The notes under the pieces were generated by a model. The model did no database searches. It was not told where the DNA came from and saw nothing but the letters and a program-made list of their open reading frames with translations. From Rikenellaceae bacterium (GTDB lineage: Bacteria > Bacteroidota > Bacteroidia > Bacteroidales > UBA932), in the NCBI GenBank assembly GCA_012800665.1, contig JAAZIW010000005.1, positions 1 to 37,767 of the forward strand: DNA of 37,767 bases, given 5' to 3'. The position numbers and the translations under genes were made by a program. Every line of letters starts with the position of its first letter. Position 1 is the stretch's first letter. Shown here in pieces: positions 33,130 to 37,767 of this stretch.

Positions 33130-34233
33130 CTATTTCAGCCGATAGTCGGAAATGTTCTGCAATCCGGGAATGCCGTAATATTTTGGCACGAGGTCGCCTT
33201 TCAAGTAAACTAAACGGCCGAGATTTTCGGGGTGGTCCACCAAATTGAGAACCTGGCGTATATCGCCTTTTTGCAATTGCACCGCAAGGCAGCTTTCTTT
33301 GTCTGCAGAGGTGGATGTGGGGGAGAGGACAAGGTTGGTGACCGATTTGAAAGGAGGGCTGAAAGAGCAGCCGCTCGCAGTGCAGTCGCCTCCGGCTATA
33401 TAGCCGTACACCCATACCCCGGCAGGGCTTTCGGATGCTTTGCTGCGCGCTTCTCCAACGCTGAGGGCGCCCGACAAATCGGTGTTGTCTCCTTCTGAAC
33501 CAGAGCCTCCGGAATTAAAAAAGAAGTTTTCTGCGGTATAGCTTAGAGAAGTGTCGATTTCCATGCTGAAACCCTCGCCGTATTTGTCAGCGGTAGAGCT
33601 TACTTCTTTTATGTTGTTGCCGGCATCAATTCGCAGGATGAGTATCTCCCGCGCTGCGAGTTCGCGTGTAAGCAGTGTGCTTGTATTGCCGCCATAACAG
33701 AATTCCAGCCACACCGGACCGGGTTTGAAATATCCTGTGCGCTTTTCGCCGTAACCGTACACTAAGGAGCCGGTAGCGCTGTGAAGGTAGAAAGTGCCGT
33801 CGGGATATTCTGCGCGGAAATTAATTCCTGTTTGCAACCTGACTCCCGCATTCAGTTGAGCGCAAGACAAATGCACTGCCGAAATCACTCCGGACTCTAT
33901 GGTAAATGTTTGATAATCACCAAATTGTTGTGCATCGAAAAGAGGCTCTGAAAACTTGCGGGAAATTGCCGATATGGTATAGTCCCCAGGCAGCAATTTC
34001 ATTTGTTTAGGGAGTGAGGAATAAATGCCCGAAAAAATACTTTTTCCCGATTCTTCAGATATTTCTATCATAAAAAGATTGGTGTCGGGAATTTCTGTTA
34101 TTGCGCGGCTTGACTGTGACTCGAATGCGATTTGCAGAAAACCTTTCTGAGGAGAAGGTCCCGACATTATGCGGTCGCAGGATAATAACGACAGCGCCAA
34201 TAGTAAGGATGTGATAATGCAAGATTTCTTCAT
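33130..34233 (-). CDS. DUF4493/DUF6359-like lipoprotein
   Basis: MKKSCIITSLLLALSLLSC lipobox; N-terminal KGFLQIAFES...LLPGDYTISA and C-terminal OB-fold-like GVWVYGYIAGG...YLKGDLVPKYYGIPGLQNISDYRL. Confidence 0.65.
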   Translation of the reverse strand: MKKSCIITSLLLALSLLSCDRIMSGPSPQKGFLQIAFESQSSRAITEIPDTNLFMIEISEESGKSIFSGIYSSLPKQMKLLPGDYTISAISRKFSEPLFDAQQFGDYQTFTIESGVISAVHLSCAQLNAGVRLQTGINFRAEYPDGTFYLHSATGSLVYGYGEKRTGYFKPGPVWLEFCYGGNTSTLLTRELAAREILILRIDAGNNIKEVSSTADKYGEGFSMEIDTSLSYTAENFFFNSGGSGSEGDNTDLSGALSVGEARSKASESPAGVWVYGYIAGGDCTASGCSFSPPFKSVTNLVLSPTSTSADKESCLAVQLQKGDIRQVLNLVDHPENLGRLVYLKGDLVPKYYGIPGLQNISDYRLK

Positions 34234-34300
34234 AATTTTTCGTTTTTGTGAATTTACGAAGACTTTCCGTTGTATCGGAGGAGTAAAAATCAACTTTTTT

Positions 34301-34319
34301 TGTTTTACTGTGTAAAACA
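34301..34319. promoter_or_regulatory. Perfect dyad TGTTTTAC-TGT-GTAAAACA (candidate operator)
   Basis: 8-bp arms, in the divergent intergenic region. Confidence 0.5.
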
Positions 34320-34437
34320 GGGTGATTTTCCCAAAGAATATTTTTTCTCAAAAATGGCCTCTCGTGTTAGTCTGTTGAGGATAAAGGATAAAAAACAAAA
34401 AAAACCAAAAAAAATGTTCATTTTTTTCGAAAAAGTG

Positions 34438-34468
34438 TTGCTATGTTTGAAAAAGGTTTTATCTTTGC
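34438..34468 (+). promoter_or_regulatory. Bacteroidetes sigma-type promoter for the DUF3575/DUF5119/fimbrillin operon
   Basis: TTG (34438-34440) - 19 nt - TATCTTTGC (34460-34468). Confidence 0.75.
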
Positions 34469-34556
34469 AGTCCGAAAAATTTGACGATTTAAAATTATAT
34501 CCAAGGCTCATGCCGAAAATATGACTTCTGTCGTTTTTTTTTGTGAAAAAAGGTAC

Positions 34557-36104
34557 ATGGTTGGACAATACTTCAGGAGGGCACTAATTGCGTGCTTATT
34601 AACCCTCGCAGCCGAAATTACGCTTGCAGCTTTCGACACCGCAAATGTGAAAACATCTGCGGATGAGGTGTTTATACGCAAGTCTACTGTCATCCACTTC
34701 AAGGTTAATCTCTTCGAACCCGATAGAGCATATGAAAACAATGCAGCCAGCCTCGATTCTTTAGTAAGCTGGATTAATCGCATCAATGGCAATGAAAATG
34801 CCACACTCGAAAAAATAACAGTCCGTTCCGCCGCTTCTCCTGAAGGCGGGGATTCTTACAATCAAAGTCTTGCCGAAAAACGCGCCAGGTCAATTTCCCT
34901 TTTCATTATTGAAAATACCGGCGTGGATCGTTCCCTCATTATAGAAAATCCCGTAGGCTCCGATTACGAGGGCCTTCGCAATATGGTCGATACTGTTTCT
35001 TTCCAGTATAGAGACGAGGTTATCCATATTCTGGACAATACTCCTTTATACGTTTATAGGAATGGAAAAATAGTAGATAGTAAAAAGAAACAACTTATGG
35101 ATTTGCGCGGCGGTCGTCCTTGGTTTTGGATGCTGTCCAACCTGTACCCAAGCTTGCGCCGGACTAAAGTCGTGATAGACTACGCCGAGCGTATAAAAAG
35201 GCATTCAGAGCTCAAGGATACCGCCAAATCCATTTCTCCTACTGTTATCCCCACAGTCATAGATACCACATCTTTGGCTGCGGAGCCGGCAGTTAGAGAT
35301 AAAGTTAAAATTGTTTCTCCTGTTATTCCCACAGTCGCCGATACGACATCCGCGACTGTGGAGGTAACAGTTTCTGACATTCCTTCCGAAATCAAGGAGG
35401 TGATAGTCAGGGATACTGTCGTAATCAGAGATACTGTCATAATCAGAGACACGATCGTAATAAGGGATACAATCCGTATCTGCGATGCAATCGAGCCCGT
35501 TCCTGAAACCGTTCCCGACACTCTTGAAACCATTGTCCAACCAATAGATACCTTCGCTCAGCAGGATCTTATCAAGATATTCAAGGCAAGGGTTGCTTTC
35601 AGCACTAATGTATTGTACGACCTTGCCATCACCCCTAATTTCAGCATGGAGATTCCCATCGGCAGGCGTTGGAGCACGGGCTTTAACTATACCTTCCCAT
35701 GGTACGTTTGGGATGGCAATACACGCGCCTACGAAATTCTCCATTTGGATATTTTTGCCCGCTATTGGTTCAATCCTTCCGAAGCCCTTACAGGCTGGTT
35801 TGCAGGAGTGAATTTCGGCGGAGGCTATTTCGATATCCAGCCCAAGGGTGCAGGTTATCAGGGAGAAGCTTCTGTAATAAGCATAGAGGCGGGTTACAAC
35901 TGGTATATCAACAAGCATTGGCGCTTTACGCTCTCCGCCGCAGCCGGCTGGATGGGCGCCGGATATCGCAGGTACGATGCCATTAAGAGCACCTATACCC
36001 ACTTGGTAGAAAGGTATGAAGGCACCTATACATGGTACGGTCCCACCCGTCTGAATGTAGGCTTCACCTATGTGTTTGGTCGTAACGTAGTAAAGAATAA
36101 GTAA
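34557..36104 (+). CDS. DUF3575 domain outer-membrane protein with OmpA-like N-terminal region
   Basis: ORF 34521-36104; start at 34557 gives a cleaner signal peptide (MVGQYFRRALIACLLTLAAEITLA); AASPEGGDSYNQSLAEKRARSI OmpA-like; C-terminal KARVAFSTNVLYDLAITPNFSMEIPIGRRWS is DUF3575-type. Confidence 0.8.
   Translation: MVGQYFRRALIACLLTLAAEITLAAFDTANVKTSADEVFIRKSTVIHFKVNLFEPDRAYENNAASLDSLVSWINRINGNENATLEKITVRSAASPEGGDSYNQSLAEKRARSISLFIIENTGVDRSLIIENPVGSDYEGLRNMVDTVSFQYRDEVIHILDNTPLYVYRNGKIVDSKKKQLMDLRGGRPWFWMLSNLYPSLRRTKVVIDYAERIKRHSELKDTAKSISPTVIPTVIDTTSLAAEPAVRDKVKIVSPVIPTVADTTSATVEVTVSDIPSEIKEVIVRDTVVIRDTVIIRDTIVIRDTIRICDAIEPVPETVPDTLETIVQPIDTFAQQDLIKIFKARVAFSTNVLYDLAITPNFSMEIPIGRRWSTGFNYTFPWYVWDGNTRAYEILHLDIFARYWFNPSEALTGWFAGVNFGGGYFDIQPKGAGYQGEASVISIEAGYNWYINKHWRFTLSAAAGWMGAGYRRYDAIKSTYTHLVERYEGTYTWYGPTRLNVGFTYVFGRNVVKNK
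35400..35489 (+). repeat. 18-bp / hexapeptide tandem repeat ([VI]xIRDT)
   Basis: VIVRDT-VVIRDT-VIIRDT-IVIRDT-IRICDA inside the DUF3575 protein. Confidence 0.9.
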
Positions 36105-37225
36105 TGAGAAAGCTCAGGTCATACGTTCTTATGCTTCTCGCAGCTGTCGTTCTGGCGGCTACGGGTTGCGAGCGCAGACCTATGGAGGCAGACTACGTTC
36201 CCACCGTAAGGGTTATTGTGAAATGCGATTGGCAATACTTCTGCGAAGAGCCCACCGGTATGACCATGTACTTCTTCAGGGACGGCGAAGACACTCCACG
36301 TGTAATCAGTACTTCACAAGTAAACGATGTGGCGGTGAATCTTCCCGCAGGCCATTGGAGAATGTTCCTCATCAACCAGAGCGTTTACGAGTTTTCAAGC
36401 TACGAATTCTTCAGCATGAACAAATACGCTCAAGCTTTCGTGCGCCTTGCAGAGATTAAATCCAATTGGTACGTTCCGAGCAAAATCAAGTCAATAAGCA
36501 AAGAAACCTTTATCGGACACGACCCCGAGCACCTCGCCGTTGCCCTGGCAAGCGAGTTCGACATCACTCACGAAATGGTGGATCACTATCAATCGGCTTA
36601 TTACGAATATAAGACCAGACTGAAGAGCAAGGCCCCGGACAGCGAATTGGATTATTATCTGAGCGCTATGGACGAATACACATACGTTATCCCTGTAACG
36701 GCACGCGACATTATTTCCACCGTGAGGGCACGTATCTATATAAACAATATCAGAAGCTTGCGCTCCGTACGCGCCGCCCTTACCGGCATGGCTCAGAACT
36801 TTGTGCTTACCAAAGACAGGACGGATGAGGGGGATGTGGATCAGCTGCTCGAATCCTGGGTAGTAGAATTCGATGAAGAAGTCCCCACCCGCGGTTATAT
36901 AGAGTCGCAGGTTACCACCCTCGGTCTTCCGAATGGAGTTACCAGTGTAGAGGGAAGAGCGCCTGAGCTTAACTCGCTAGGACTCAATATGCTTATGAAA
37001 GACGGCAAAACCCTGTTGAAGTACGATTTTTTAGTGGGGCACAAGTTCCAAATCACCAAGGATGAAAGTGGATTGGGCTTGAGGCTGAATCTCTATTTGC
37101 AGGAAGGTTACGATAAAGACCCTGTAATAACATTGCCTGATGTGGTGGTAGAAGAGGGCGGCGGCGGATTCAAGGCTGATGTTGTGGATTGGGAAGATGA
37201 AATCAATGTCGGAATACCGATTTAA
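36104..37225 (+). CDS. DUF5119-like lipoprotein
   Basis: 373 aa; lipobox LAATGC; VRVIVKCDWQYFCEEPTGMTMYFFRDGED...LPAGHWRMFLINQS; start overlaps upstream stop by 1 nt. Confidence 0.75.
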   Translation: MRKLRSYVLMLLAAVVLAATGCERRPMEADYVPTVRVIVKCDWQYFCEEPTGMTMYFFRDGEDTPRVISTSQVNDVAVNLPAGHWRMFLINQSVYEFSSYEFFSMNKYAQAFVRLAEIKSNWYVPSKIKSISKETFIGHDPEHLAVALASEFDITHEMVDHYQSAYYEYKTRLKSKAPDSELDYYLSAMDEYTYVIPVTARDIISTVRARIYINNIRSLRSVRAALTGMAQNFVLTKDRTDEGDVDQLLESWVVEFDEEVPTRGYIESQVTTLGLPNGVTSVEGRAPELNSLGLNMLMKDGKTLLKYDFLVGHKFQITKDESGLGLRLNLYLQEGYDKDPVITLPDVVVEEGGGGFKADVVDWEDEINVGIPI

Positions 37226-37279
37226 TGTGATACGGCATCTTATATATATAAGGTTAGAAAATTTAAAAATCGAATAAAA

Positions 37280-37339
37280 ATGAAAGATTTGAAAAATAAT
37301 AAACAACAAATAATAAACAACAAAAACAAAAAATCATGA
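37280..37339 (+). other. Short upstream ORF (19 codons) overlapping fimbrillin start (ATGA)
   Basis: MKDLKNNKQQIINNKNKKS*; TGA stop overlaps the ATG at 37336. Confidence 0.35.
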
Positions 37340-37767
37340 AAAAGTATTTTGTTATCGCAGCAGCTGCTGCCCTTGTTCTTGGAGCATGCTCCAAGAACAT
37401 CATCGATGTAACCAGTACAGGAAATGTTATTGGTTTCAGTACTTACTCTCCCACGCCTACCAAGGCGGGCGGTTCATTTGTAACCGGCACCAACTTCAAC
37501 GGAGTTAACGCAGACGATCAGCTTATAGGTGTTTATGCCTATAACACAGGTAGTGCTACTTATGCTGATGCAACACACACACCGAACTTTATGAGTGATG
37601 TTAAGGTTAAACTTTTGGCTAATGGCGATTCACCTTCAACTGAGTATTCTCCGATACGCTATTGGCCTACCGATGAGGCTAACAACAAGCTTACCTTCTT
37701 TGCCTATTATCCAAATTTGGCGGGAAACAACATCACTAAGACGGCAGGCACCGGTCTCGTGGATTTC
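37336..37767 (+). CDS. Fimbrillin family protein (Mfa-like), partial at window edge
   Basis: MKKYFVIAAAAALVLGACSKNIIDVTSTGNVIGFSTYSPTPTKAGG...YSPIRYWPTDEANNKLTFFAYYP is the fimbrillin-type N-terminus; missed by the ORF track because it runs off the end. Confidence 0.88.
   Translation, partial: MKKYFVIAAAAALVLGACSKNIIDVTSTGNVIGFSTYSPTPTKAGGSFVTGTNFNGVNADDQLIGVYAYNTGSATYADATHTPNFMSDVKVKLLANGDSPSTEYSPIRYWPTDEANNKLTFFAYYPNLAGNNITKTAGTGLVDF

Follow-up and report, generated by a model that had tools for sequence, protein, structure and literature searches.

The type V fimbriae of Porphyromonas gingivalis, Mfa1 (Mfa1-5) and FimA (FimA-E), are built from pilins that are lipoproteins and have a Lys/Arg cut site, together with an anchor that stays uncleaved and accessory or tip proteins. 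Mfa2 is such an anchor and is not cleaved, 3pay, 3gf8 and 4qdg are putative anchors, and these proteins carry a tryptophan some ten residues from their C-terminal end (Hall et al. 2018, PMC5789003). Known anchors end in a short C-terminal hairpin, with no long free tail (PMC5789003). In Bacteroides thetaiotaomicron, the BT4227-BT4236 locus, reported to be iron-responsive, encodes an Mfa1-type fimbrillin, a DUF3868 protein, a DUF3575 protein and a response regulator (PMC10434189); as in the locus described here, DUF3575 lies near a fimbrillin, but it is adjoined by DUF3868 and no DUF5119 protein is named. A further relative is BACOVA_02677 of Bacteroides ovatus, deposited in the PDB in 2015 as a "putative adhesin" (5cag) without a function. 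The open-access library searched returned no paper dealing with DUF5119 or BACOVA_02677, and two that mention DUF3575, both of them in gene tables.

The window analysed here (37,767 nt) is the entire contig G000:C193 of a MAG of 1.58 Mb (273 contigs, 84.9% complete), and the fimbrillin gene at its right end is thus cut by the contig break at 37767. Three ORFs were confirmed at this end, coding for a DUF3575 protein, a DUF5119 lipoprotein and the 5' part of a fimbrillin, and the analysis supports reading the locus as a type V-like pilus operon from an uncultured Bacteroidales, of which the contig retains the base-proximal half. Its features are as follows.

34437-34467, + strand: candidate Bacteroidales promoter (-33 GTTG at 34437-34440, 19-bp spacer, -7 TATCTTTG at 34460-34467)
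34557-36104, + strand: DUF3575 outer-membrane protein (PF12099, E = 8e-25; AF2 mean pLDDT 78)
34659-35201, + strand: OmpA-like domain, residues 35-215 (PDB profile matches to OmpA/OprF/Pal; Foldseek matches to OmpA-like domains)
35229-35561, + strand: predicted disordered linker with RDT(V/I)VIRDT-type repeats, residues 225-335 (pLDDT mostly 32-56)
35568-36098, + strand: predicted eight-strand beta-barrel, residues 338-514, which is the DUF3575 domain proper (the model shows eight long strands)
36104-37225, + strand: DUF5119 lipoprotein of 373 aa, proposed anchor pilin (PF17145, E = 2.5e-25; AF2 mean pLDDT 87.7)
37163-37222, + strand: end of the Gly-rich linker and C-terminal tail GGFKADVVDWEDEINVGIPI, proposed donor strand (Trp363 at 37190-37192)
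37226-37335, + strand: A-rich stretch leading up to the fimbrillin; contains a 14-bp tandem direct repeat (sequence read)
37336-37767, + strand: fimbrillin, putative major pilin, first 144 residues (PF13149, E = 2.5e-6)
37374-37399, no strand: 26-bp perfect palindrome TGTTCTTGGAGCATGCTCCAAGAACA, with the GCA TGC codons of the fimbrillin lipobox at its centre

The profile searches recovered the three families that the initial annotation had named from the sequence, the OmpA match being sub-threshold, and the TAATG overlap of the DUF3575 and DUF5119 genes that it described was read at 36102-36106. Compared with the P. gingivalis fimbriae, the proposed anchor belongs to DUF5119 instead of PF08842, its gene lies before those of the pilins, the operon includes a DUF3575 gene, there are several pilin genes and the anchor tail sits on a flexible linker. 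A phage origin was ruled out, as PHROG profiles gave no match for DUF5119 or the fimbrillin. On the other side of the intergenic region, which it has in common with the pilus operon, lies a divergent lipoprotein gene with DUF4493 and DUF6359 (33130-34293, - strand).

The promoter before DUF3575 had been called strong. Its -7 box is exact, but its -33 box keeps three of four bases, and a strict search of the window for the pattern TTTG-N15-23-TANNTTTG did not return it; TANNTTTGC itself occurs 17 times in the window where 8.3 are expected, roughly a twofold excess. It is plausibly a real promoter, although a candidate that falls short of "strong". Upstream of DUF3575 we saw no inverted repeats typical of an invertible promoter, and such a promoter was ruled out, the repeats there being A/T runs only.

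The DUF3575 protein has 515 residues if translated from 34557 and 527 from 34521, the former start being likelier because the signal peptide begins there. The AF2 model places in order a signal peptide, an OmpA-like domain, a disordered linker and an eight-strand barrel. The fold of the N-terminal domain is backed by sequence profile, AF2 model and Foldseek; Pfam detects OmpA below threshold in this part of the protein and returns an OmpA match in 15 of 37 DUF3575 members. The domain is similar to the peptidoglycan-binding domain of OmpA, OprF and Pal in its fold and in a conserved Arg (kept in 30 of 30 DUF3575 proteins that possess the domain), whereas it precedes the barrel instead of following it, and the diaminopimelate (DAP)-binding Asp is replaced by Ser in the same 30 of 30. 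We take these two aligned positions to be the OmpA Asp/Arg pair that binds DAP, and standard peptidoglycan tethering is doubtful because of the missing Asp. Seven of the 37 aligned DUF3575 proteins lack the domain altogether. From the model, the protein could be narrowed to a putative outer-membrane barrel with a non-canonical, optional OmpA-like domain. A second, short DUF3575 protein is encoded elsewhere in the MAG (G000:C168, 37500-38030, - strand, locus L080; E = 8e-38).

The DUF5119 gene is the only one of its family found in the MAG. Its product has a lipobox with Cys22 (36167-36169), and its structure was modelled with AF2 from 44 sequences. A Foldseek search of the PDB with this model gave 5cag as the best match (E = 1.5e-15), followed at ranks 2 to 7 by anchors, namely Mfa2 (5nfi), 3gf8, 4qdg and 3pay, whose best chains have E-values of 1.6e-8 to 1.8e-7; the tip protein Mfa3 (3e-7), the shaft protein Mfa1 (5e-5) and also FimA rank behind them. 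The TM-scores with the anchors are modest (0.37-0.42 by query length). The structural similarity to type V proteins on which the initial annotation depended is thus found in the DUF5119 model, which folds like type V anchors such as Mfa2. At the sequence level, 5cag was the only significant match of the DUF5119 profile among PDB sequences (E = 5.5e-5), none of the 44 DUF5119 proteins matched PF08842 at E 0.01, and a search of the MAG for this Mfa2 family returned no protein above the cut-off. By model match, DUF5119 is therefore a predicted anchor-like protein that resembles Mfa2/FimB yet lies outside PF08842. The cut motif T-[KR]-[AGSTN] was found within about 50 residues after the Cys in one of 44 DUF5119 proteins, against 74-88% of the downstream genes, and we infer that DUF5119 is lipidated and would retain its lipid.

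The C-terminus of DUF5119 is as distinctive as its fold. In 43 of 44 copies, a Trp occupies the position exactly 10 residues from the C-terminus, and the last 20 residues, behind a Gly-rich linker, are disordered in the monomer model (pLDDT about 43). As known anchors have a short hairpin in place of this Gly/Ser/Pro linker, a free-tail mode of DUF5119 would deviate from them. The same Gly-rich linker and Trp tail occur in the crystallised 5cag sequence, which is otherwise shorter, and in DUF5119 proteins from other families in the order, where DUF3575 mostly lies upstream. A 22-column tail HMM was too short, with no match even in pilins, and a Trp-anchored score against GGFKADVVDWEDEINVGIPI was therefore used. 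Its mean is 22 for the first pilin gene, 19 for the second and 10-12 for later genes, compared with 2.7 for background C-termini, while some internal Trp windows of pilins also reach good scores. The likeness to the first pilins is consistent with both tails occupying the major pilin's groove. Anchor and pilin tails match better within than between loci (p = 4e-4); once the relatedness of the DUF5119 bodies was controlled, this own-locus matching was not significant (partial Mantel p = 0.155), and co-evolution of the tails was dropped. Taken together, the fold, the rarity of the cut motif and the tail suggest that DUF5119 is probably an anchor that donates its C-terminal tail.

The fimbrillin fragment matches Mfa_like_1 (PF13149) just above the cut-off, its full-length relatives reach E-values down to 1e-22, and its PDB profile match is 3ufi (E = 3e-7). 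It has a lipobox with Cys18 and a putative protease site after Lys43 (PTK/A). Both motifs listed in the initial annotation are present, TKAGG with the K43 codon at 37462-37464 and YWP within RYWP at 37657-37668, and K43-A44 is invariant in 11 aligned sequences. The pilins thus have what is expected of lipoproteins with a Lys/Arg protease site, at which cleavage is putative. The window's fimbrillin is closest to gene 1 of the related loci L024, L033 and L054, and it is also before gene 1 that A-richness is highest across relatives. As for the palindrome at the lipobox, no other arm in the window exceeds 7 bp and Markov sequences reach 9; a role as a shared pilin recombination site was ruled out, TGTTCTTGGAGCATGCTCCAAGAACA being absent, with up to two mismatches allowed, from 399 other genomes of the genus. 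Its RNA could form a strong hairpin in the mRNA. A fimbrillin-like fragment beside a peptidase-like gene lies at another contig edge of the same MAG (L020, G000:C122, 2-511, - strand), and pilin genes may break this assembly repeatedly.

To place the locus among its relatives, 41 genomes were searched at first, six of which, besides that of the window, matched DUF5119; a single GTDB genome scan then gave 43 DUF5119 loci, nearly all from uncultured ruminant Bacteroidales, four of which (L027, L052, L054, L056) repeat loci of the first set. The order conserved in the 43 loci is DUF3575, DUF5119, fimbrillins (in most cases one to five) and, last, one or two long tip-type proteins of about 500-1,100 aa, DUF5119 being always at the DUF3575 end and never at the tip end. 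An ORF lies upstream of DUF5119 in 43 of 44 loci, and 35 of the 37 examined match the DUF3575 Pfam model; the two genes overlap by 4 bp in 19 loci and by 1 bp in 4, that is in 23 of 43. Two tandem pilin genes of L028 (2481-3692 and 3795-5006) have equal length and look identical at both ends, which suggests a recent duplication or an assembly repeat. The 718-aa accessory protein of the L063 type has no match in the MAG, which at its completeness is uninformative.

The initial annotation expected further genes of the pilus operon past 37767, and this agrees both with the additional fimbrillins in the relatives and with tip-type genes on another contig of the MAG, C246. There, a 771-aa gene starts 38 bases from the edge and is followed by a 952-aa gene. 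In the locus set, the 771-aa protein has 13 matches, all of which come late in DUF5119 loci, and the 952-aa protein has a match in L046, to the last gene there (E = 1e-109); these matches are circumstantial, because the set covers only DUF5119 loci and their surroundings. C193, however, has the only DUF5119 gene found in the MAG, and we consider it likely that C193 and C246 are the two ends of one operon. Of the two C246 genes (L068, G000:C246, 3362-8540, - strand), the 952-aa one contains a weak stretch of similarity to Mfa2 (PF08842, E = 0.002, under the cut-off), and the 771-aa one has a weak Lcl_C match near its C-terminus.

We thus propose, with reasonable confidence, a base-half type V-like operon in which DUF5119 would be the tail-donating anchor and DUF3575 its platform. 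The pilins would be synthesised as lipoproteins and exported to the cell surface. By analogy with FimA and Mfa1, a Lys/Arg-specific protease would cut at TK/A, taking off the N-terminal strand and exposing a groove. Because it has no cut site, DUF5119 would keep both its lipid and its first strand, and its C-terminal strand, on the Gly/Ser/Pro linker, may enter the groove of the most basal major pilin by strand exchange, which would tether the pilus and end its growth. The DUF3575 barrel with its periplasmic OmpA-like domain would be the most likely seat of the anchor; gene coupling is the basis on which we prefer to read DUF3575 as its platform or partner. In the missing right part we would expect further pilins followed by tip-type proteins, the latter probably encoded by the 771- and 952-aa genes of C246. 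A bolder version, in which DUF5119 and DUF3575 form a distinct two-part type V base, with a pre-released donor strand and a co-translated barrel that nucleates or caps assembly, seems to us unlikely; if true, type V pili would gain their first known dedicated assembly platform.

Could DUF5119 instead be a minor or tip pilin inside the fibre? Its fimbrillin-type two-domain fold and shaft-like C-terminal tail, and the presence of Mfa3 among the fold matches, would suit such a role, which is nevertheless quite improbable given that the pilin cleavage motif is all but confined to the downstream genes, that the DUF5119 gene keeps to the DUF3575 end and that the top fold matches after 5cag are anchors. 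It is more doubtful still that the genes encode individual surface lipoprotein adhesins and no polymer at all: the evidence for a fibre is sequence evidence, which would suit this idea, but the conserved multi-pilin order, the K-A cut site and the Trp tails speak against it.

With DUF5119 taken as the anchor, the role of its neighbour may also be seen differently. DUF3575 might be an usher-like protein that assembles or translocates the pilin lipoproteins and not a static base, as no chaperone or usher is known for the type V fimbriae of P. gingivalis (PMC5789003). The predicted outer-membrane barrel and the tight gene coupling with the anchor would agree with this, whereas the occurrence of DUF3575 outside such operons, as in the copy on C168, would not. 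An eight-strand barrel is, moreover, too narrow for subunits to pass. We hold an usher-like role to be possible though rather improbable. Canonical tethering of the pilus base to peptidoglycan by the OmpA-like domain is what the domain's fold, its sequence match and the invariant Arg would predict; the uniform change from Asp to Ser and the DUF3575 proteins devoid of the domain make it improbable. A platform or partner for a DUF5119 anchor remains the reading that we prefer.

The obvious view of an OmpA domain tying the pilus to peptidoglycan thus fails on a key residue, and DUF3575 becomes a candidate base component of fimbrial loci. Assigning DUF5119 as an anchor, with its tail defined and its partner predicted, would turn it from a family of unknown function into a testable one, and the tethering and termination of type V pili would become testable outside Porphyromonas.
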